The translations under genes and the position numbers were made by a program. Source: an uncultured Bacteroidales bacterium (GTDB taxonomy: Bacteria > Bacteroidota > Bacteroidia > Bacteroidales > Bacteroidaceae). Taken from it: a DNA stretch of 43,828 nt. A model generated the notes under the pieces. That model searched no databases. It was not told where the DNA came from and saw only the letters and a list, made by a program, of their open reading frames with translations. This document shows positions 33,540-43,212 of this stretch, piece by piece (the stretch's first letter is position 1; every line of letters starts with the position of its first letter). Location of the stretch: positions 1 to 43,828 of the forward strand of contig CACWFV010000044.1 in the NCBI GenBank assembly GCA_902760315.1, given 5' to 3'.

Positions 33540-33566
33540 TAAATATAAATAGAAAGATTGATTAGG

Positions 33567-34430
33567 ATGAATAAATTTTATAAAGTCGCTGGTCATACCT
33601 TCTCTGTGGAGTTGCCAGAAGGAACGGCTCTTCTCGATAAAATGGGCCAATATGAGCCTTTTTCCGTAGAAGAAGCCTCTGAGGTGGTATTCTCTGTTCG
33701 AGTGGTAGGCAAGGACGAGTTCCCACAGACTGACGATATTGTTGCTGAAATGAATCAGGATGATGACGGCTCTCAGATTTTGGCAGGCCGTCTCCATGAA
33801 CAGCCCTATTTTGAGTTCCAACTGTGGGGTCGCTGTGCAGCCCGTATGGTCACAGATGCCCATTATCACCATGCTGACGTTCTGTTGGTTGACGAACCAT
33901 TGTTTGGCATCAATAATGCCCTGATGGTGATGTATGCCCTGTCAACAGCCAATCTGCAGACGGCGCTGTTCCATTCCTCTGTTGTCAGTTGTGCAGGCTA
34001 TGGCTATATGTTCTTAGGTAAGAGTGGTACAGGTAAGAGCACTCATTCCAGTCTGTGGCTAAAGCATATCGATGGCACCGAACTGATCAACGACGACAAC
34101 CCCGTAGTACGCAGAATGCCCGATGGATTCTACGTTTTTGGTTCTCCATGGAGTGGCAAGACGCCCTGCTATCGCAATGTGAACTACCCCTTGGGCGGTG
34201 TCGTCCAACTGAGTCAGGCACCTTATAATAAAATAGAGCGCTTACGCCCGCTGACGGCCTACGCAGCTCTGGTGCCGTCCATTTCCGGCAAACGATGGGA
34301 CAAGCAAGTTGCCGAGGGACTGCACCAGACGGAAGAGATGATGGCCGGCGAGGTGGCCGTATGGCATCTGGAGTGTCTGCCCGACGAGGCAGCTGCACGT
34401 CTCAGTTCTGAAACCATTAAGAAAGCATGA
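33567..34430 (+). CDS. HPr kinase-like P-loop protein of a peptide-modification cassette
   Basis: 287 aa from ATG 33567 (MNKFYKVAGHTFSV); a TTG 9 nt upstream in frame is less likely. Residues 151-158 form a Walker A loop, GKSGTGKS, preceded by strands and a SSVVSCAGYGYMFL segment, and followed by INDDNPVVRR with acidic residues that resemble the Walker B area of HPr kinase/phosphorylases. The fold looks like the HprK-type kinases found in some lasso-peptide and other RiPP clusters, where they phosphorylate a peptide. The real substrate is unknown. It overlaps the next gene by 4 nt (ATGA) and leads a row of protease, PqqD and ABC exporter, so a role in maturing a peptide is inferred. Confidence 0.78.
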   Translation: MNKFYKVAGHTFSVELPEGTALLDKMGQYEPFSVEEASEVVFSVRVVGKDEFPQTDDIVAEMNQDDDGSQILAGRLHEQPYFEFQLWGRCAARMVTDAHYHHADVLLVDEPLFGINNALMVMYALSTANLQTALFHSSVVSCAGYGYMFLGKSGTGKSTHSSLWLKHIDGTELINDDNPVVRRMPDGFYVFGSPWSGKTPCYRNVNYPLGGVVQLSQAPYNKIERLRPLTAYAALVPSISGKRWDKQVAEGLHQTEEMMAGEVAVWHLECLPDEAAARLSSETIKKA

Positions 34431-34882
34431 CCACACCGTCAGACAACGAAATCATAGAGAGTGCCGTCAGACTGGTCAACGATGGCTTGTGCGTCACGTT
34501 CCCGGTGAAAGGCTACAGCATGCTGCCGTTCATCATCGGTGGCAAGGAGAGTGTCGACCTGGTGAAACCCGCCGACCTGCAGGTGGGCCACGTCGTACTG
34601 GCCTGGGTGGAGGGCTGCCGCTATGTAGTCCACCGCATCATCCGGATGGACGGCGACCAAGTGGTGCTCATGGGCGATGGCAACATTGCCGGTGTGGAGC
34701 ACTGTCTGCTCAGCGATGTCAAGGCGCTGGCCACGCACGTCGTCACCCCGCGGGGCCGCCACCATGCACTCTATGCGCCATGGCGCCGCAAGGCCAGCCG
34801 GCTGTGGTGCCGCCTGTTGCCCGTGCGCCGCTGGATTCTGGCCATCTACCGCCGGACATGGCTGAAACTGCTCTATCACTAA
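34427..34882 (+). CDS. S24/S26-type peptidase with a Ser/His dyad
   Basis: 151 aa. FPVKGYSMLPFI places the nucleophile Ser31 in the GxSMxP box of signal peptidase-like enzymes. Where bacterial type I signal peptidases have a lysine, this protein has VVHRI with His69, as in the archaeal/ER and SipW branch (S26B). LMGDGN (75-80 region) matches the KGDAN-type box. No N-terminal membrane helix is seen; the last 35 residues are very basic and hydrophobic (WRRKASRLWCRLLPVRRW) and may bind the membrane. It is coupled to the kinase-like gene. It probably removes a leader from an exported peptide; this is inference from neighbours. Confidence 0.8.
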   Translation: MTTPSDNEIIESAVRLVNDGLCVTFPVKGYSMLPFIIGGKESVDLVKPADLQVGHVVLAWVEGCRYVVHRIIRMDGDQVVLMGDGNIAGVEHCLLSDVKALATHVVTPRGRHHALYAPWRRKASRLWCRLLPVRRWILAIYRRTWLKLLYH

Positions 34883-34916
34883 GTATAACCACACAACAAA
34901 AAAAATAACAACAATA

Positions 34917-35189
34917 ATGAAACAAAAAGAAGGATTCATACTGCGCACCGTTTGCGGCGAGAATGTCATCGTGGGCGAGGGCCTGGGAACTATTGACTTT
35001 GGCAAACTGATCAGTCTCAACGAGACAGCAGCCTGGATATGGAAAAAAGCCGCTGAAATGGGCAATTTCTCTGTTGACAGCCTGACCGACGCCCTTTGTC
35101 AGGAGTACGACGTCGACGCTCAGCAGGCTCACGACGACGTGGCCAAGATGATAGCTCAGTGGAAGGAGCTGGGCATCGTCGAAGAGTAG
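34917..35189 (+). CDS. PqqD-family peptide-binding protein
   Basis: 90 aa. The sequence has the PqqD/RRE pattern: a short N-terminal strand region (GFILRTVCGENVIVGEG), then LISLNETAAWIWKKA, SLTDALCQEYDVD and DDVAKMIAQWKELGIV, which form the helical wing. PqqD proteins bind RiPP leader peptides and present them to modifying enzymes. It lies 34 nt after the peptidase and 4 nt before the ABC exporter. No radical SAM enzyme, cyclase or precursor peptide is found in the window. Confidence 0.85.
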   Translation: MKQKEGFILRTVCGENVIVGEGLGTIDFGKLISLNETAAWIWKKAAEMGNFSVDSLTDALCQEYDVDAQQAHDDVAKMIAQWKELGIVEE

Positions 35190-35193
35190 GCGG

Positions 35194-36825
35194 ATGAAAT
35201 ACGTCCTCTGGATAGTCCGTAACATGGCGGGCATCAGGTGGAACACCCTGGTACGCGTCGTGGTGGGCATCACGCAGGTGGTGCTGGGCTTGGTCATGAT
35301 CTGGTTCAGCAAGCAGTTCATTGATGTCACCATCCGCACGGGCACCGACAGCGACGTGGCCGTCATGGTGCTGCTGCTGGTCAGTCTGGTGGTTGCGGGC
35401 ATCCTGCTGCGCCAGCTCTATTACTACATGACGACGAAGGCCAGCACCTATCAGTCTAACAGCATCCGCCTGCGGGTGTTCAGCAGCCTGTTCCGCCGAC
35501 AGATGTTTGAAGACCAGCTGCATTCGGGCGACGTCACTTCCCGACTGTCCAAGGACATCGACACCGTCTCTGACGTTACCACCACGCTGTTGCCGCAATT
35601 CATCGTCACTGGCGTACAGCTCACGGGAGCCTTTCTCCTGATGTACTCCATGGACCGCCGGCTGGCGCTGTGCCTGCTGCTCATCACACCGTTCATCGTG
35701 GCCTTTGGCAAATTATTTGCCCACCGGCTGCGCAACATGACGCTGGACATACGGCAACAGGAGAGCAACATCCAGATGCAGGTACAGGAGGGCATGGAGC
35801 ACAATGCCATCCTGCGCTCGCTGGGCAGCGAACAATGGGTCACCGACCGGCTGAGCGACATGCAGGACCAACTGATGGGGCGCGTCTTGCGCCGTACGCG
35901 GTTTACCGTGGTTACCCGCCTGATGCTGGCTTTTACGTTCAGCTTGGGCTATCTGCTGGCTTTCATCTGGGGTGGTCTGCAGTTGCGTGCCGGCGTCATC
36001 ACCTTCGGTGTCATGACGTCGTTCCTGCAACTGGTGGGACAAATCCAGCACCCTATACTCAACATTCTTAACATGATGCCGCAGTTCTTCTACGCAACGG
36101 CCAGCATAGACCGCCTGGAGGAACTGTCGGAAACACCGGCTACAAGCCCCGCCCCGTCAACGGAACTCACAGCCGGCGCGCTGGGGGTCACCGTCAGCAA
36201 CGTCAGCTTCACCTATGCCACTGGCGACAGTCCGGTGCTCCACCATTTCTCTCACCATTTCCAGCCGGGCAGCAAGACCGCCATCATGGGGTCTACGGGC
36301 ATTGGTAAGACGACACTGTTCCGGCTGATGCTGGCTTTCATCAAGCCCGATGCCGGTGAAATCGACCTTTTTGACGGTCATCAGCACACCCAGCCGGTCG
36401 ACGAGCACACGCGCCAGCACTTCGTCTTTGTGCCTCAGGGCAACACGCTGATGAGCGGCACCGTGCGTTACAACCTGCAGCTGGCATGTCCCGATGCTAC
36501 TGACGACCAACTGCGCCAGGTGCTCCATGTGGCCATGGCCGACTTCGTCTACCAGTTGCCCGACGGCATCGACACCATGCTGGGTGAGCGCGGCATCGGA
36601 CTCAGCGAGGGTCAGGCGCAGCGCATAGCCATTGCTCGCGGCCTGTTACGTCCAGGCAGCATCCTGTTGCTCGACGAAATCAGCTCGTCACTTGACGAAC
36701 AAACCGAGCACGAACTCTTCAGCCGGCTCTTCGACTACTGCCACGACAAGACGATGATTTTCATCACCCACCGTCCTGCCGTCAGCTTGCTCTGCGACGA
36801 TGTCATCCGACTGCATGAGTCATAA
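35194..36825 (+). CDS. ABC transporter, fused permease and ATPase
   Basis: 543 aa half-transporter, inner membrane. Six helices in the first 310 residues (TGVQLTGAFLLMYSM, LAFTFSLGYLLAFIWGG), a linker, then the ATPase: Walker A GSTGIGKT (366-373), Q-loop VPQGN, signature LSEGQ (470-474), Walker B ILLLDE (490-495), H-loop FITHRP. It acts as a dimer. There is no C39 peptidase domain at the N-terminus, so any cleavage must come from another protein, such as the Ser/His peptidase two genes before. It is the last gene of the cassette and meets the serpin gene head-on 9 nt later. Confidence 0.93.
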   Translation: MKYVLWIVRNMAGIRWNTLVRVVVGITQVVLGLVMIWFSKQFIDVTIRTGTDSDVAVMVLLLVSLVVAGILLRQLYYYMTTKASTYQSNSIRLRVFSSLFRRQMFEDQLHSGDVTSRLSKDIDTVSDVTTTLLPQFIVTGVQLTGAFLLMYSMDRRLALCLLLITPFIVAFGKLFAHRLRNMTLDIRQQESNIQMQVQEGMEHNAILRSLGSEQWVTDRLSDMQDQLMGRVLRRTRFTVVTRLMLAFTFSLGYLLAFIWGGLQLRAGVITFGVMTSFLQLVGQIQHPILNILNMMPQFFYATASIDRLEELSETPATSPAPSTELTAGALGVTVSNVSFTYATGDSPVLHHFSHHFQPGSKTAIMGSTGIGKTTLFRLMLAFIKPDAGEIDLFDGHQHTQPVDEHTRQHFVFVPQGNTLMSGTVRYNLQLACPDATDDQLRQVLHVAMADFVYQLPDGIDTMLGERGIGLSEGQAQRIAIARGLLRPGSILLLDEISSSLDEQTEHELFSRLFDYCHDKTMIFITHRPAVSLLCDDVIRLHES

Positions 36826-36834
36826 ACGGGTGTT

Positions 36835-38142
36835 TTACTGTCCGGTATACTTTCCGACGAAGAGGATAACACCTGATGTGCGTTCACGGATGACATAAAC
36901 AAAGGGGCGGTTGGCGTGGAAGACAGCCGCCGGGTAGTCGGCAGGGCCGACTGACGTGGCGGAGAAACCGGCAACGGTCACGGCGGCAGCCTCGGAGCCC
37001 TCCTCGTTGACCTTGATTCTGGCCTTTTGGCGCATCATGCTGATGTAGACGGGCTTGTGGACACACATATTGGTGATTTCGGCCATGTCTGGGTCGAAGG
37101 CCAGGCGGATGCCCATCTGCTGGAGCAGACTGATGAGTCCGTCGCCATTCAGCTCGTCGGTGTCCGAACTGGTTTCAAAGCGGGGCAGCTTCAGGTCCAC
37201 CTCGTGAGCCTGGAAGGTGGTCTCCGGATCCAGACACCAGCCCTGGCTATTGAGCACGGCACTGTTCACCACGCTGTTGATGACGTCGTCGGTGGTCTTG
37301 CCCTCCTCAGGCAGCATGACGGTCATGTTCCAAGCGCCTTGACCGTAGGGCATCTCGATGGCCGAGTAGGTGCTGTTTCTCATATAGCCGATGAGCACGT
37401 TCTGGTGCATCATGGGCACCGTGCCGCTGCCGAAAGCCTCCGTCCTGGTGTTCTTAGGGTCAAACTTCGATGCCCAGTCTGCCTTGAAATAGATGGCGTT
37501 GAGCAGATAGGTCAGTACATCCGGGTCTACCCGGCTCAGTATGGTGGGTATCATACCTTTGGTCTTTTCGTTGCACCAGCCGTTGATGCGATCCTTCGCG
37601 TCGTCTGACCTGAAGTCGAGGGCTTCAGCCTGCGCGTCGTAGTAGGTCAGCATATCTTGCTGGTAGGCGGGCTGTAGCGTGGCCTTGTTTTTATTGACAA
37701 ACAGTGCGTTGGCGATGTCGAGCGTTACCTTCGCATCCACCTTTGGCAGTCCGTCGATGAGTTTCTTGCAGTAGTCGTTCACTGCCTGTATGCCACCTTC
37801 GTGGAATCCCAGCGTCTGCTCCAGTTCGCGCTCGGTCTGTCCGGTGGCGGCGGCATTTACCATGGCCAGCACGTAGGTGACGCTCAGCGGCGAGTAGACG
37901 TAGCTGGAGCCTGGCCTGCTGGCCTTGTCAGCCGACACCAGGAAGTTCAGCGTGAAGCGGTTGTTGTCGTTGGCGAAGGTGCGCTGTTCGTCGGTCAGCC
38001 GGACAGGTTGTATCGGCGTCGTCATGTTGACCAGCATCTTCGGTTCCTGGTCTTCGCTCTCAGCGTCTGACGCTGAGGAGCACGAGGCTGTCGTCAGCAC
38101 GGTACCCAGCAGGGTGAGCATGGAAAAAAGATACTTTCTCAT
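36835..38142 (-). CDS. Serpin, predicted surface lipoprotein
   Basis: 435 aa. Signal peptide with lipobox TASC (Cys21), followed by the acidic stretch SSASDAESEDQE, which resembles the Bacteroidota lipoprotein export signal for the cell surface. Then a full serpin fold: VYSPLSVTYVLAMVNAAATGQT, NALFVNK, LLNAIYFKADW, VPMMHQ, MPYGQGAWNMTVMLPE, and the strand after the reactive loop RPFVYVIRE with VGKYT at the end. The hinge EEGSEAAA (380-387) has small residues, the mark of inhibitory serpins. By the usual register the P1-P1' bond would be Thr396-Ser397. Bacterial serpins of this kind, such as miropin of Tannerella forsythia, protect against host or competitor proteases. It is divergent from the sigma-barrel gene. 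Confidence 0.92.
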   Translation of the reverse strand: MRKYLFSMLTLLGTVLTTASCSSASDAESEDQEPKMLVNMTTPIQPVRLTDEQRTFANDNNRFTLNFLVSADKASRPGSSYVYSPLSVTYVLAMVNAAATGQTERELEQTLGFHEGGIQAVNDYCKKLIDGLPKVDAKVTLDIANALFVNKNKATLQPAYQQDMLTYYDAQAEALDFRSDDAKDRINGWCNEKTKGMIPTILSRVDPDVLTYLLNAIYFKADWASKFDPKNTRTEAFGSGTVPMMHQNVLIGYMRNSTYSAIEMPYGQGAWNMTVMLPEEGKTTDDVINSVVNSAVLNSQGWCLDPETTFQAHEVDLKLPRFETSSDTDELNGDGLISLLQQMGIRLAFDPDMAEITNMCVHKPVYISMMRQKARIKVNEEGSEAAAVTVAGFSATSVGPADYPAAVFHANRPFVYVIRERTSGVILFVGKYTGQ

Positions 38143-38178
38143 AATGCGATAATGTTTTGAGTTTCTGACTTAATAATG

Positions 38179-38186
38179 CAAAGGTA
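38179..38186 (-). promoter_or_regulatory. -7 box for the serpin gene
   Basis: TACCTTTG on the minus strand, 36 nt before the serpin ATG. No TTG at 19-21 nt; instead one arm of a 10-bp inverted repeat lies just upstream. Confidence 0.6.
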
Positions 38187-38190
38187 ATCA

Positions 38191-38250
38191 AATTCTTGTA
38201 CAAAAGATTGTTAATAAATGCAAAACCGCAGGCGTTATCATACAAGAATT
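38191..38250. repeat. 10-bp inverted repeat in the serpin/sigma-barrel divergent region
   Basis: AATTCTTGTA at 38191-38200 and its exact inverse TACAAGAATT at 38241-38250, 40 bp apart. The left arm runs into the 8-bp palindrome TTGTACAA (38196-38203). The arms lie upstream of the two divergent -7 boxes, one on each side, a layout fitting an operator or an ECF recognition element for both genes. Confidence 0.55.
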
Positions 38251-38253
38251 GCG

Positions 38254-38261
38254 TATTTTTG
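38254..38261 (+). promoter_or_regulatory. -7 box for the sigma-barrel gene
   Basis: TATTTTTG fits TAnnTTTG and lies 35 nt ahead of the ATG at 38297. No clear -33 element; the right arm of the inverted repeat is 3 nt upstream. Confidence 0.45.
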
Positions 38262-38296
38262 AATTATTATAGCAGAACTGAAGCAGAAACAGCGTC

Positions 38297-39859
38297 ATGG
38301 TCAGTGAAATAGTTGAGCGTATCAGGCAGAAAGACCAGCGGGCGATGAGCGAGCTCTATGAGATGTATGTCCAGGAGCTGGCGTCCGTCTGTCGTCGCTA
38401 TGTGGCTGACGCTGACGACGCCAAGGATGTGCTGCAGAACAGTTTCATCAAGATTTTCGCCGCCATTCCCACCCTTGACTACCGGGGCGAAGAGGCTTTC
38501 AGGGCGTGGATGTGCAAGGTGGTGGTCAACGAGGCGCGTGTGTTCCTCAGAGACCAGAAGCGCCACCAGACGGTGCAGCTGGCTGCGGCCACCGTCACGA
38601 CCGATGATGAGGACACGACTGCGAGCAGCGAGGAGATTACACCCGCCCAGTTGCACCGACTCATCAGCGAGTTACCCATAGGCTATCGCACGGTGCTGAA
38701 CCTCTTTGTCTTCGGCCACTACTCTCACCGCCAGATTGCCCAACTGCTTGGCATCAAGGAGGTAACCTCTGCCACGCAGTTTTATTATGCCAAACAGCGC
38801 CTGGCACGCCGAATCCGTGAACTGGCGCTGGCGTTCTCGGCAGCGGTGGTGCTGTTGCTGGCCGGCCTCTTCGTCTTCGTGCCGTCTGGCCAGGAGGCAC
38901 CGCAAGAACTGACCAGCAAACTGCGTCAGGCGACGGGCGGACAGCAACCGGTAACAAGCCGTCATTGCCAGCCGTCAAACCAGCATCGCCAGATGGCTGG
39001 TGTTCACAGCATGGCAACCGGTCTTCAGCGAAAGCGCGTAGCAACCGGTGCTCCCGACACGATACCGATGGCTCTGCCCGCAGCCCAGCAGACTGCAACG
39101 ACAGCCGTAACGGTCGCCACCGTTCCGCAACAGCCGTTGGCGGTGGCTGATACTATTGCTCCGACAACTGAAGAGCAGCCGGCAACGGTGGCCGTTGAAC
39201 CGACGCCGGCAGCAGAGGCTTCGCCGGCAGCACCTTCCAACCGCTGGACTGTCGGGCTGGCGGGTTCTGACGGACTATTGGCCATCAACACAGAAGAAAG
39301 AGGAGGATTATCTGTTCTGGGGCCTCAGTACGATGCCACAAGCGGCACTAATACCCCACCAATGCCGGCTGCGCTACAGCCAGAACCAAGGTACCAACAC
39401 CACAGACCCTTGCGCCTGGGTCTCTCCCTGCATTACCAAATCAGTCCCCGCCTGGCTCTGCTCACAGGTGTCAGCTACATGATGCTGAAGTCGGACATCA
39501 GCCTTCCGTCAGTCAATGGCCAGAACAGTCAGCAGCGCCTGCAGTATGTGGGCATCCCTGTCGGACTGTCTTACCAACTGTGGTCTACCGCTCACCTGCA
39601 TGTCTATCTGTCAGCCATGATCCAGTTGGAGAAGTGTGTCAGTGCCGACGTGCCTGCTGCCATAACCCGTCAGCATCCGTGGCAATGGTCGGTGGGTGGC
39701 GTCGCCGGCGTGGAATATAGCGTCAGCCGCTTGTTAGGCTTCTACCTGGAACCTTCGTTGGGTTATTACTTCAATGACGGCTCATCGCTGCAACATTATT
39801 ATAAGGAGCACCCCCTGACACCTGCCCTCCAGTTTGGCGTCAGATTCCACCTGGAATAG
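38297..39859 (+). CDS. ECF sigma factor fused to a transmembrane helix, linker and outer-membrane beta-barrel
   Basis: 520 aa in a single uninterrupted frame. Residues 10-90 are sigma region 2 (LYEMYVQELASVCRRYV, DDAKDVLQNSFIKIFAAI, FRAWMCKVVVNEARVFL). Residues 116-173 are region 4 with the helix-turn-helix YSHRQIAQLLGIKEVTSATQ. Only a few residues later comes one membrane helix (about 176-197). Residues 198-315 are rich in Pro, Ala, Thr and Gln, enough to cross the periplasm. Residues 316-520 alternate as amphipathic strands (LRLGLSLHYQISPRLALLTG, YVGIPVGLSYQLW, LHVYLSAMIQLE, FYLEPSLGYYF) and end FGVRFHLE, as in outer-membrane barrels. Known Bacteroidota dual-membrane anti-sigma factors (Dma) have the helix-linker-barrel part but bind a separate sigma factor; no anti-sigma domain is seen here. 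I infer release by proteolysis on an envelope signal. Confidence 0.88.
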   Translation: MVSEIVERIRQKDQRAMSELYEMYVQELASVCRRYVADADDAKDVLQNSFIKIFAAIPTLDYRGEEAFRAWMCKVVVNEARVFLRDQKRHQTVQLAAATVTTDDEDTTASSEEITPAQLHRLISELPIGYRTVLNLFVFGHYSHRQIAQLLGIKEVTSATQFYYAKQRLARRIRELALAFSAAVVLLLAGLFVFVPSGQEAPQELTSKLRQATGGQQPVTSRHCQPSNQHRQMAGVHSMATGLQRKRVATGAPDTIPMALPAAQQTATTAVTVATVPQQPLAVADTIAPTTEEQPATVAVEPTPAAEASPAAPSNRWTVGLAGSDGLLAINTEERGGLSVLGPQYDATSGTNTPPMPAALQPEPRYQHHRPLRLGLSLHYQISPRLALLTGVSYMMLKSDISLPSVNGQNSQQRLQYVGIPVGLSYQLWSTAHLHVYLSAMIQLEKCVSADVPAAITRQHPWQWSVGGVAGVEYSVSRLLGFYLEPSLGYYFNDGSSLQHYYKEHPLTPALQFGVRFHLE

Positions 39860-39903: not shown

Positions 39904-40728
39904 TTACGAACTGAAAATCTCCTCTACATTGAACCAGACCACCGAGGCCATAGCAGCCATGATGATTAGCCCGAGACCGATAGCGGCACAGAAAAGAAGC
40001 CGCCAGATGGTGCCCCACCACCCGTAGCCGAAGAGTTGCCTGTAGGTCACGATGAAATAGATGGGGAACAGGAGGCTGACTTGCATGACCGTCAACTGGG
40101 CAACCGTGTCTATCAGCAGGTTGAGGCTGGCCATGAACACCTGAATGAAGAACCCTTCGGGCAGGTTGTGCCGGGGGTAGCGGGGGGCACGGCGGAAGAA
40201 CAGCCACGTGGGAAGGATAAATACGGCCATGAAGAGCAGCGTGCTCCAGGCCGTATTGTCCTTCGCCCAGGTCATAAACTGATTCAGGAAGGCCAACTCC
40301 CCCTCAAAGGACTGTGCCTCTGCCACGCTGCCATAGAGTTTCTCGTGCAGTCGAGCGGCCAGCGCGTTGGCAAGGGCTACGATGAACAGCATCTTCACGG
40401 GTGGGAACGCCACCTGCCGCTTGCCGCTGATATAGTCGTGTATCAGGTAGCCGGGCCGCAATGCCAGTTGAACCAGCGTGAAACTGAGCGAGCGGTTGTC
40501 CATGCCCCAGAGTATCATGATGCCCTGCCGCACCGTGTTCCACCCTATAGACCCCACCCCGGCTTTCTGGCCGCAGCGGGGACAGAAGTTGTCACGGAAC
40601 TCCGTACCGCAGTTGGCACATCTGGTGGTGTGCTCGCTGTGGTTCGCGTAGTCAAACGGATGCTCCTGCCAGGTCCTGAACCGCCGATACCGCTCTCTCA
40701 GATTCATCCTCATATCACCAGTCGTCAT
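39904..40728 (-). CDS. DUF3667 membrane protein with an N-terminal zinc ribbon
   Basis: 274 aa. Cys37, Cys40, Cys49 and Cys52 form CxxC...CxxC (CANCGTEFRDNFCPRCGQK), a zinc ribbon followed by the DUF3667 block RPGYLIHDYISGKRQVAFPPVKMLF. Four to five membrane helices follow (about 112-125, 162-180, 198-225, 245-265). Function is unknown in the family. It converges with the sigma-barrel gene (44 nt apart) and is 38 nt downstream of the next secreted-protein gene on the same strand. The ATG at 40726-40728 is used; an ATG at residue 6 or 8 is possible. Confidence 0.85.
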   Translation of the reverse strand: MTTGDMRMNLRERYRRFRTWQEHPFDYANHSEHTTRCANCGTEFRDNFCPRCGQKAGVGSIGWNTVRQGIMILWGMDNRSLSFTLVQLALRPGYLIHDYISGKRQVAFPPVKMLFIVALANALAARLHEKLYGSVAEAQSFEGELAFLNQFMTWAKDNTAWSTLLFMAVFILPTWLFFRRAPRYPRHNLPEGFFIQVFMASLNLLIDTVAQLTVMQVSLLFPIYFIVTYRQLFGYGWWGTIWRLLFCAAIGLGLIIMAAMASVVWFNVEEIFSS

Positions 40729-40766: not shown

Positions 40767-42185
40767 CTACTTTATTATAAACTTCCTACCATTCCGGATA
40801 TACAGGCCTTTCGTGGGCTGGGAAGTCAAGCGACGGCCTTGGAGGTCGAAGAAGGTATTGTTTAGTGGCGCTTCCTCTTTGCTTACGGATTTGATACCGT
40901 CGGTTGCATCTTTCTTTGGCCATCTGTTATACAGCACATCACCATTACGCTCGAAATGAACGAGCATGGAGCGGTAGTGGCGTTGGGGATACAAATCCCC
41001 ATGGTCATAATCAAACATACTCAAGGCATCATATGGGTTGGGAGGTCCGAACAGACACTCGCCGTCCTTCCATTCTGTGATGCCTATCCCATGAATAATT
41101 CGACCACCCTCTGTGTTAAGATTAGTTATGGGCAGAGAAATATCTTCCTCTGGGGCCTTGCCGTCCAGGTCAACATATTGCAGGGGGCGTACACCTCCGA
41201 AGTCTGCTTCTTTTATCTCGTCAATAATGCCATAGTAAAGATGGTAACTCTGCATGTCGGTGGTATTGCACTGAAGAATATTTTCATAGTATAGTCCTTT
41301 TCCTATGCTCCAGTCAAACTGGTATGCAGTTCCCGGCCATGGCACATAAAGTTCTTCAAGGTCATTGTGTGCCGGGACTGATACCGAGACCTTATCATTC
41401 TTTTCCAATATCATTAGTGTAAGGGAGTCAGTCCATGTGGGGCCACTGGTATACACGCATTTAAACGTCTCGTCATATTTTGTATATGTGCCTTGCACAT
41501 AGTACTCTACAGTTTCAAAGTTTGGCATCCATTCTTCACCATCCTTTGAATACCAACTGTCATATTTCAGCGTGTCAAGCCTGATTTCCGTCCATTTGGT
41601 GCCTTCGGGGAAATACTCTTGGGCAAGAAAGAAATCCTTTGTTGAAAACGCAACGTCATCAGCAAATAAACACTGGAGAAGTGTGTAGTTGTCACCTGGC
41701 ATTCGAACACTGTTTGTAAGATAATTCATACCCCCAACTCCCTCAATCCACCAGTTTTTACTATAATCATTCTCATTATCATGTATTCCCAGGACCCGGA
41801 AAGAGCGGCTACCGAGAGTGATAGTATCCACACTTGTTACAGTTGCATTTACGTTGGCAGTTACAAAAGCATCTCCCACATTCAGGCTAAAATCATAAAC
41901 AATAAATTCGTTTTCGTTTTGGTAACAATATACCTTGCTTCCATCTTCGCGCATAACACACTCACAACGTCCTGTAGCTACGTCTACTATTCTCTTATAG
42001 TTAATGTTGGCAATCAGTGTGTCACCCCTTACGGTTAGCGACTTGTTATGAGTATTATCATTCATATCATGATAAACATATTGCCATATTTTACCCTCAG
42101 TCAAGAACTGTTTGTAGCTCTCCTCTGCATATGACTGAGCTGACAATAAGATAAAGAATAAGAAGGCGATATATGGTTTGTTCAT
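40767..42185 (-). CDS. Secreted protein with a DLQGRR-type C-terminal tail, function unknown
   Basis: 472 aa. Signal peptide (MNKPYIAFLFFILLSAQSYA). The body is beta-rich with few recognised motifs: EGKIWQYVYHDM, LIANINYKRI, FRVLGIHDN and NWWIEGVGGMNYL. The end reads FFDLQGRRLTSQPTKGLYIRNGRKFIIK in two overlapping pieces, the tail often found on secreted Prevotella proteins and similar to type 9 secretion sorting tails. It shares its start pattern (EGK.W...Y) and WWIEG(V/I)G with the 254-aa protein at 42448-43212, so the two are paralogs. Base composition is more A/T-rich than the neighbouring genes, hinting at a separate origin. I do not know its function. Confidence 0.75.
   Translation of the reverse strand: MNKPYIAFLFFILLSAQSYAEESYKQFLTEGKIWQYVYHDMNDNTHNKSLTVRGDTLIANINYKRIVDVATGRCECVMREDGSKVYCYQNENEFIVYDFSLNVGDAFVTANVNATVTSVDTITLGSRSFRVLGIHDNENDYSKNWWIEGVGGMNYLTNSVRMPGDNYTLLQCLFADDVAFSTKDFFLAQEYFPEGTKWTEIRLDTLKYDSWYSKDGEEWMPNFETVEYYVQGTYTKYDETFKCVYTSGPTWTDSLTLMILEKNDKVSVSVPAHNDLEELYVPWPGTAYQFDWSIGKGLYYENILQCNTTDMQSYHLYYGIIDEIKEADFGGVRPLQYVDLDGKAPEEDISLPITNLNTEGGRIIHGIGITEWKDGECLFGPPNPYDALSMFDYDHGDLYPQRHYRSMLVHFERNGDVLYNRWPKKDATDGIKSVSKEEAPLNNTFFDLQGRRLTSQPTKGLYIRNGRKFIIK
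40825..40848. repeat. 24-nt direct repeat, copy 1 (inside the DLQGRR tail)
   Basis: Identical at all 24 positions to 42383-42406 and on the same strand. It encodes DLQGRRLT in both places, so it marks copying of a tail segment. Confidence 0.85.
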
Positions 42186-42447: not shown

Positions 42448-43212
42448 TCATTGTTTAAGTACTTTCTTTTTATCTTGAATATAGATTCCATGTCCATTCT
42501 TTATTTTAACTCCAGAAACAGAAAAAATGTTGGATGGACAATTCTTTTCTATATGGTGAACATGTTGGACACCCGAACTCAGACTTTTAAAGTCTTCCAT
42601 GTCAATTATCACTTTTTCATTAATCACGCATTTCTGAAAGTATCTGTTATTGCCCGCTGCTCTAAAAAGCCATGTGTTTAAGGGACCTATTTCGCTACCA
42701 ATACCTTCTATCCACCATCCCGATGAAGTCTCAGTAGGTCGTTCTTCCCACATTGGTTGCATGAGAACACAACGTCTGGATTCCAATCCAATGTTCAGAA
42801 TTCTTTCTTCAACCATTTTCATCTCTCGCTCCCAATCTGTGTGTATGGCATCTGTTACAGAAACTATCCCACCTTTAGTATTGTCAAAATCATATAAAAC
42901 ATGACTATTCTCCATATTCTTCGGAATAAAATACACTTTTCTGTCGTTTTCGAAAAGTGCCAATAAATATTCTGTTTCTTGGGCGTTATTATAATTAAAA
43001 GCATAAAACTTCTTACATTCGATGCCTCCAATCACGGTATCCCCCTGAATATAATAGCAATAATCGTAATCAGGATACTCTGGTACTTCTTCATTGCTGT
43101 AATTCATATACCAGGTTTTGCCTTCTTCCACGAACGGTACATACTGACGCTCCTGTGCAAAAAGAACTGTCTGCACAGCCATGAACAAGAAAAACAATAA
43201 TGCCTTTTTCAT
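42448..43212 (-). CDS. Secreted protein, paralog of the 472-aa protein, function unknown
   Basis: 254 aa. Signal peptide MKKALLFFLFMAVQTVLFAQ, then VEEGKTWYMNY, a pattern shared with the 472-aa neighbour, CYYIQGDTVIGGIECKKFYA, a lipocalin-like string of short strands, and SSGWWIEGIGSEIGPL. It ends FSVSGVKIKNGHGIYIQ-DKKKVLKQ, a diverged version of the same tail. It is shorter than its paralog and lacks the middle 200 residues. A/T-rich. It follows the small secreted-protein gene by 12 nt, so both are likely transcribed from the promoter at 43514-43545. Confidence 0.75.
   Translation of the reverse strand: MKKALLFFLFMAVQTVLFAQERQYVPFVEEGKTWYMNYSNEEVPEYPDYDYCYYIQGDTVIGGIECKKFYAFNYNNAQETEYLLALFENDRKVYFIPKNMENSHVLYDFDNTKGGIVSVTDAIHTDWEREMKMVEERILNIGLESRRCVLMQPMWEERPTETSSGWWIEGIGSEIGPLNTWLFRAAGNNRYFQKCVINEKVIIDMEDFKSLSSGVQHVHHIEKNCPSNIFSVSGVKIKNGHGIYIQDKKKVLKQ

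Follow-up and report, generated by a model that had tools for sequence, protein, structure and literature searches.

The closest described counterpart of the protein analysed here is Dma3 of Bacteroides thetaiotaomicron (bt_2778-2779), for which one sentence in print, in the discussion of PMC13088901, gives a sigma factor as the N-terminal domain. In that brief account Dma3 is a Dma-family protein whose sigma factor is part of the chain rather than the product of a neighbouring gene, and the protein encoded in our 43,828-nucleotide stretch of DNA from an uncultured Bacteroidales bacterium (the whole stretch is referred to as the window) has the same plan. The preliminary description of the locus knew of no earlier account of a sigma factor anchored through both membranes; given the Dma3 sentence, its claim of no precedent fails. 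A literature search for membrane-anchored or fused sigma factors gave nothing closer among the matches listed. Compared by description alone, the two differ in that the window protein is placed in a serpin-linked Das/Dma lineage, outside the clade of fused proteins that we call clade B.

The Das1/Dma1 and Das2/Dma2 systems, as portrayed in the available part of the same source (PMC13088901), consist of a companion ECF21 sigma factor and a dual membrane-spanning anti-sigma factor with a membrane helix, a disordered tether and a C-terminal barrel, and the window protein can be likened to these. In such pairs a separate sigma factor is held by the N-terminal anti-sigma domain of its partner, whereas in the window protein that domain is lost and the sigma factor stands in its place. 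IutY of Pseudomonas putida, an ECF243 hybrid, likewise joins a sigma factor and one membrane helix in one chain and is released by Prc and RseP, but it has a periplasmic anti-sigma end, a separate outer-membrane receptor and no barrel in the chain, at least as set out in the accessible portion of PMC5411451. An IutY-type periplasmic anti-sigma domain was not found after the window helix; a low-confidence linker and barrel stand there instead, and no such Pfam match appeared at E ≤1. The ECF52 (SCO4117), ECF48 and ECF53 proteins of Actinobacteria are also sigma factors with C-terminal membrane helices, but with zinc-finger and, in SCO4117, carbohydrate-binding extensions, and the available text of PMC8999054 describes no outer-membrane barrel for them. 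Finally, the BcpT-induced sigma/anti-sigma pair of Phocaeicola vulgatus has a barrel-bearing anti-sigma factor, but is encoded by two genes; its output, in the portion of the account available, includes longer O-antigen with no serpin described, unlike the output predicted for the window. A related two-gene system reacts to an antibacterial toxin, likely via envelope stress, according to the part of PMC9308784 at hand.

The fused protein and its missing anti-sigma domain

A single frame on the forward strand, at 38297-39859, is open throughout its 520 codons. Sigma region 2 occupies residues 20-89 (38354-38563; Pfam Sigma70_r2, PF04542, E 3.1e-13) and region 4, with its helix-turn-helix, residues 118-169 (38648-38803; Sigma70_r4_2, PF08281, E 1.9e-10); both matches are above the family cut-offs, as is TIGR02937 in NCBIfam. 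With regions 2 and 4 present, and with 50 of the 53 sigma columns conserved in its nearest relatives (clade A, below) retained, the N-terminal part is an ECF sigma factor. Hydrophobicity and comparison with two-gene relatives place an inner-membrane helix at residues 177-195 (38825-38881). It is followed by a periplasmic linker rich in Pro, Ala and Thr at residues 196-316 (38882-39244) and by a predicted eight-stranded outer-membrane β-barrel at residues 317-519 (39245-39853), for which Pfam gives a weak match, below the family cut-off, to OMP_b-brl_2 (residues 374-492, E 0.006).

The AlphaFold2 model, calculated from a 47-row alignment of the window protein with 46 proteins from the named genome collection, has a mean pLDDT of 72.1 and a pTM of 0.43. 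Confidence is high for residues 1-90 (pLDDT 89-98 by blocks of ten) and low for region 4 (pLDDT 49-77, with residues 156-158 and 160-162 below 50). Residues 159-194 are modelled, with low confidence, as a single helix joining the region-4 recognition helix to the membrane helix. The linker has pLDDT mostly below 50 and is probably disordered. Residues 317-519 form eight strands of at least eight residues and one short strand, the first strand at pLDDT 66-77 and the others mostly at 87-98. When the modelled chain was searched with Foldseek it matched sigma-E (1or7; E 1.4e-6, TM-score by target 0.46) and the eight-stranded barrels OmpW (E 1.6e-6, 0.62) and OmpA (E 3.4e-6, 0.62). The preliminary description had seen here, in one frame, sigma regions 2 and 4, a near-adjacent membrane helix, a linker of about 118 residues and a C-terminal barrel, and the reading frame, Pfam, AlphaFold2 and Foldseek confirm that arrangement, the linker coming to some 120 residues. 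The protein thus has the Dma3-type plan, with an ECF sigma domain, helix, tether and barrel in one chain.

Is the anti-sigma domain truly missing? A profile trained on clade A Dma proteins detects 19 of 19 clade A loci, a set that overlaps its training set, and 23 of 27 other Dma proteins. In the six frames of the window it found no Dma-type anti-sigma domain (best E 1.1), and in 80 clade B loci there was again none (best E 0.32). The genome, the one metagenome-assembled genome (MAG) in which the window fusion is found, is 2.97 Mb and 84.6% complete, and a search elsewhere in it for an orphan domain of this type gave nothing convincing (best E 0.306 over 12 residues). The junction between sigma factor and helix, moreover, leaves no room for a domain of about 48 residues. 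The earlier proposal that the sigma factor stands in place of an absent anti-sigma domain, on a Dma-like helix-linker-barrel plan, is therefore borne out by both the profile search and the junction. Loss of a stop codon alone can be ruled out as the origin of the frame, because the anti-sigma domain has gone as well.

Relatives and origins of the fused architecture

Relatives were sought by protein search in 60 genomes and in 398 genomes of the window's genus. The closest among the matches listed are two-gene loci, in which a sigma factor gene is followed by one for a Dma-type protein that carries an anti-sigma domain as well as helix, linker and barrel. Trees were built from 88 rows: 33 distinct fused frames, the window's among them, and 55 pairs with both genes complete. 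Loci whose contig carries just one gene of the pair, for example in G031, G013, G025 and G158, were excluded. In both the sigma tree and the barrel tree, 32 fused proteins group together as clade B, and the window stands alone among 28 pairs (clade A). The fused state requires two changes in each tree, both forced by starred branches, all supports being SH-aLRT values from quick trees. A joined tree of 41 chosen rows agrees, grouping the window with the pairs from G241, G361 and G299 (SH-aLRT 98). A single clade of all fused proteins is thus disfavoured by the two forced changes in both 88-row trees, though the AU test is weak on the sigma factor alone, where it does not reject such a clade (p 0.093); for the joined set of 41 chosen rows p is 0.037. 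The window branch is long, at 0.52 in the sigma tree and 0.65 in the barrel tree.

The junction was compared with that of five pairs. In these the sigma factor stops a few residues past a conserved RRI.E motif and the anti-sigma domain comes next; in the window, RRIREL passes straight into the membrane helix, with the fusion point near residue 176. The sigma match and the helix match are 164 nt apart in G299, compared with 9 nt in the window, and the join keeps the reading frame, right where the membrane helix begins. Judged from these comparisons, the likeliest source of the window fusion is a two-gene Das/Dma locus that lost some 160 nt carrying the sigma tail, the stop codon and the anti-sigma domain, and this fusion appears to be separate from the one in clade B. 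For the preliminary description, a stop or frameshift near residue 175 in all relatives, making two genes, would have counted against its proposal. The nearest relatives do carry such a stop, in all 28 clade A pair rows, but the window has lost the anti-sigma domain besides the stop, and a separate clade is fused (32 tree rows, and 80 of 80 loci in the named collection). Apparent fusions of 644 and 643 residues in G082 and G380 were rejected; under table 11 these are pairs, with one TGA between same-frame sigma and Dma parts (L115:2354-2356, reverse strand, and L116:1648-1650, forward strand), and both keep the N-terminal part of Dma.

Could the fusion be an assembly error in the MAG, the organism having the usual two genes? 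Its occurrence in one genome only, among clade A pair rows that are two genes in 28 of 28 cases, would fit such an error. The missing segment, however, spans the whole anti-sigma domain, and the two parts meet without a shift of frame just as the membrane helix starts, recreating the plan of clade B, which is found in many assemblies. We consider an error very improbable.

It is also improbable, if a little less so, that the window copy is decaying or locked, its brake removed and the sigma factor either constitutively released or no longer working. The long branch, the restriction to a single genome and the replacement by Gly of a region-4 Glu conserved in clade A all speak for decay. Set against these are the 520 open codons and the intactness of both copies of the promoter-like motif described below. 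The protein also retains 50 of 53 sigma and 42 of 43 barrel columns conserved in the other clade A rows, which is within the range of its two-gene relatives: its three lost sigma columns, the Glu among them, compare with a clade A median of one and a worst case of five, reached by two pairs.

Clade B, by comparison, is no isolated case. The preliminary description had proposed that other chains with region 4, helix and barrel be sought, and when 17 aligned clade B proteins were used to scan the named genome collection, at least 494 relatives came up; among the best 80, which were kept, 80 of 80 have sigma factor and barrel in one frame. Many of these 80 are from rumen Prevotella-type MAGs and one is from Phocaeicola intestinalis strain Sa1CVN1. 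A clade B profile at E 1e-60 matches 76 of 301 genomes of the window's family, a count that takes in the genome of the window itself and five genomes in which all matches are partial; in three of the family matches, two full-length and one partial, there is one internal stop. Across the order, 9 of 393 genomes match, five of them outside the window's family (one of these partial). Among the 80 clade B genes, 54 overlapping gene pairs passed a similarity and dS filter, and their median dN/dS is 0.097 for the sigma factor, 0.228 for the linker and 0.106 for the barrel. Clade B is therefore under strong purifying selection, implying that the fused architecture is a working kind of protein, and on this sequence evidence the architecture is real in clade B.

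One feature of the clade B helices deserves mention as a lead only. An intramembrane proline is present in 71 of 82 distinct clade B helices, compared with 3 of 55 Dma helices, the rows in both sets being related. The window helix does not have the intramembrane proline common in clade B, and at least 6 of the 11 proline-negative clade B helices have a proline at or just past the edge of the stretch that was scored. The proline was set aside as a sign of cleavage.

Neighbouring genes and promoter-like motifs

Divergent from the fused gene, on the reverse strand at 36835-38142, lies a serpin gene encoding 435 residues (Pfam PF00079, E 4.6e-84), with an N-terminus that looks lipoprotein-like by eye. 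This arrangement is shared with clade A: of 19 clade A loci, 15 have a serpin oriented divergently to the sigma gene, within 160 bp of it in 11 of these, as in the window, and at 0.6-1.9 kb in the other four. One of the remaining loci has a serpin placed elsewhere and three have none in the stretch examined. The synteny adds to the placement of the window in clade A. Next to one clade A pair, the serpin (L120:2432-3764, reverse strand) is split into two frames.

Alignment of the regions upstream of the 19 clade A loci and the window revealed a conserved element, approximately TACAAGA-TT...TA..TTTG.ATTAT, which faces the sigma gene and, in reverse, the serpin. In the window one copy, at 38241-38267 on the forward strand, faces the fused gene, and a second, at 38173-38200 on the reverse strand, faces the serpin gene. 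Searching the whole 2.97 Mb genome gave one mismatch-free match per pattern, both between serpin and fusion; with up to three mismatches there were 1 and 4 matches, compared with 1 and 1 for a backward control. The search was extended over 26 genomes, 19 chosen for carrying clade A and 7 having no strong clade A match. The exact pattern matched 18 times, 15 times at clade A sigma/serpin loci and 3 times elsewhere, and the backward control not at all; 12 of the 19 carriers had an exact match (7 had none), as did 0 of the 7 others. The three matches elsewhere lie in G305 contig 22, with no frame of at least 60 residues reported in the 1.5 kb scanned, in G299 contig 12, with a frame of 428 residues or more starting 215 bp downstream, and in G221 contig 61, some 300 bp away from a barrel match. 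The clade A motif was derived from loci of the very genomes that were then searched (for the clade B motif below this applies to some of the loci), and its presence there is partly by construction; it is therefore its rarity elsewhere that is informative. From its co-occurrence with the sigma genes and its position, we infer that the motif is a promoter read by the sigma factor, which probably controls the serpin, a protease inhibitor.

A different element, TGCAGTCTTT followed by GGACT, is associated with clade B. In 20 genomes the exact pattern matched 9 times, all in the five genomes with branch B1, and the backward control matched twice. In the B1 genomes it precedes the fused gene in four of five, and in all five a copy follows that gene closely, ahead of the next one. 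It gave no exact match in five genomes with other clade B proteins, one of which (G023) has a protein near B1 in the barrel tree, nor in ten genomes chosen for weak matches, the window's genome among them. Of the 80 clade B loci, 62 carry a 10-base part of the motif on the coding strand and 18 lack it; it lies within 200 bp before the fused gene in 43 loci, within 200 bp after it in 33 and in 24 other places, and occurs only twice on the other strand. A literature search for a TGCAGTC motif with a sigma factor, Bacteroides and promoter found no paper. Here too, co-occurrence and position suggest that the motif is read by the clade B sigma factors.

The gene neighbourhoods of clade B are recurrent. 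A C13-peptidase-like gene precedes the fusion in 28 of the 80 loci and a serpin lies within three genes of it in 17; other genes near the fusion encode radical SAM proteins (29 of 80), small lipoprotein-like proteins (26 of 80) and GFO/IDH/MocA oxidoreductases (24 of 80). Two gene orders can be distinguished: in 28 loci among L137-L216, a serpin or other gene, C13 peptidase, secreted-looking protein and fused sigma factor; in L164 and similar loci, fused sigma factor, lipoprotein-like gene, radical SAM/SPASM gene and GFO/IDH/MocA gene. For other neighbourhoods in clade B, no connection with proteases is apparent.

The window contains further genes on either side. Before the serpin, at 33558-36825 on the forward strand, genes for HPr-kinase-like, signal-peptidase-like and small PqqD-like proteins and an ABC exporter follow in a row, as judged by eye. 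Convergent with the fused gene, at 39904-40728 on the reverse strand, is a gene for a DUF3667 protein with a weak zinc-ribbon match. Beyond it on the same strand, at 40767-42185 and 42448-43212, are two secreted-looking proteins with similar N-termini, for which Pfam and NCBIfam give no match at E 0.01; by eye, their C-terminal ends are somewhat like those of type IX secretion substrates.

A possible transenvelope sensor

How might such a protein work? The explanation that we favour, and consider reasonably probable, is that the fused protein is its own transenvelope sensor. Tethering would hold the sigma factor inactive until the outer membrane is disturbed, whether by the barrel being unseated or by a protease cutting the tether; a site-2 protease of the RseP type would then cut the membrane helix. 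The freed sigma factor would act on the two divergent promoters that share the motif, firing its own gene and that of the serpin. Activation of its own gene would give positive feedback and supply new receptor, and the circuit would be local in this genome, with damage to the outer envelope or by proteases as input and a protease inhibitor as output. Cleavage and release are made plausible by the presence of a Peptidase_M50 (site-2-protease-family) gene in the window's genome and by the RseP dependence of IutY truncates, and with a serpin as the predicted output, a protease-sensing loop is an appealing idea in the case of the window.

An alternative, which we regard as unlikely, is that the sigma factor works while still tethered. 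RNA polymerase would be recruited to the membrane and the barrel would signal by a change of shape, without cleavage, much as in one-component membrane regulators; there is, after all, no anti-sigma domain to be removed. In the model, however, the recognition helix of region 4 continues without a break into the membrane helix, although confidence there is low. Moreover, IutY truncates that retain the membrane helix are inactive without RseP, their activity being fully dependent on it in the portion of PMC5411451 available. The same portion reports that the IutY sigma domain alone is uncut, yet its activity also drops without RseP.

Release by cleavage, our favoured explanation, has several points against it: the window fusion comes from one MAG and has a long branch, a conserved region-4 Glu is Gly, the AU test is weak on the sigma factor, region 4 is modelled with low confidence and the helix has no intramembrane proline. 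Furthermore, the motifs were derived from genomes then searched, and 7 of the 19 clade A genomes have no exact match.

A broader extension of this explanation is possible, though we would put it at somewhat worse than even. Transenvelope sigma factors may be recurrent, having arisen at least twice from Das/Dma pairs by loss of the anti-sigma domain, with the tether serving as both brake and bait: intramembrane proteolysis would release the sigma factor once the outer part is cut or unseated. Control of proteolysis, through a serpin or C13 peptidase encoded at the same locus, would be a main output both for the window lineage and for one part of the older clade.

What would be new here, on the sequence evidence, is a second fusion, the absence of an anti-sigma domain and the promoter-like motifs that tie sigma genes to their neighbours, the Dma3 precedent being known by description. 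Where Dma3 had been described in a single sentence, there is now a family that probably arose twice and has conserved operons and candidate promoters. The passage of a signal across two membranes to a sigma factor would be testable with one gene and one reporter, and the architecture suggests that the anti-sigma domain, the usual brake in such systems, is dispensable when the sigma factor is itself tethered.
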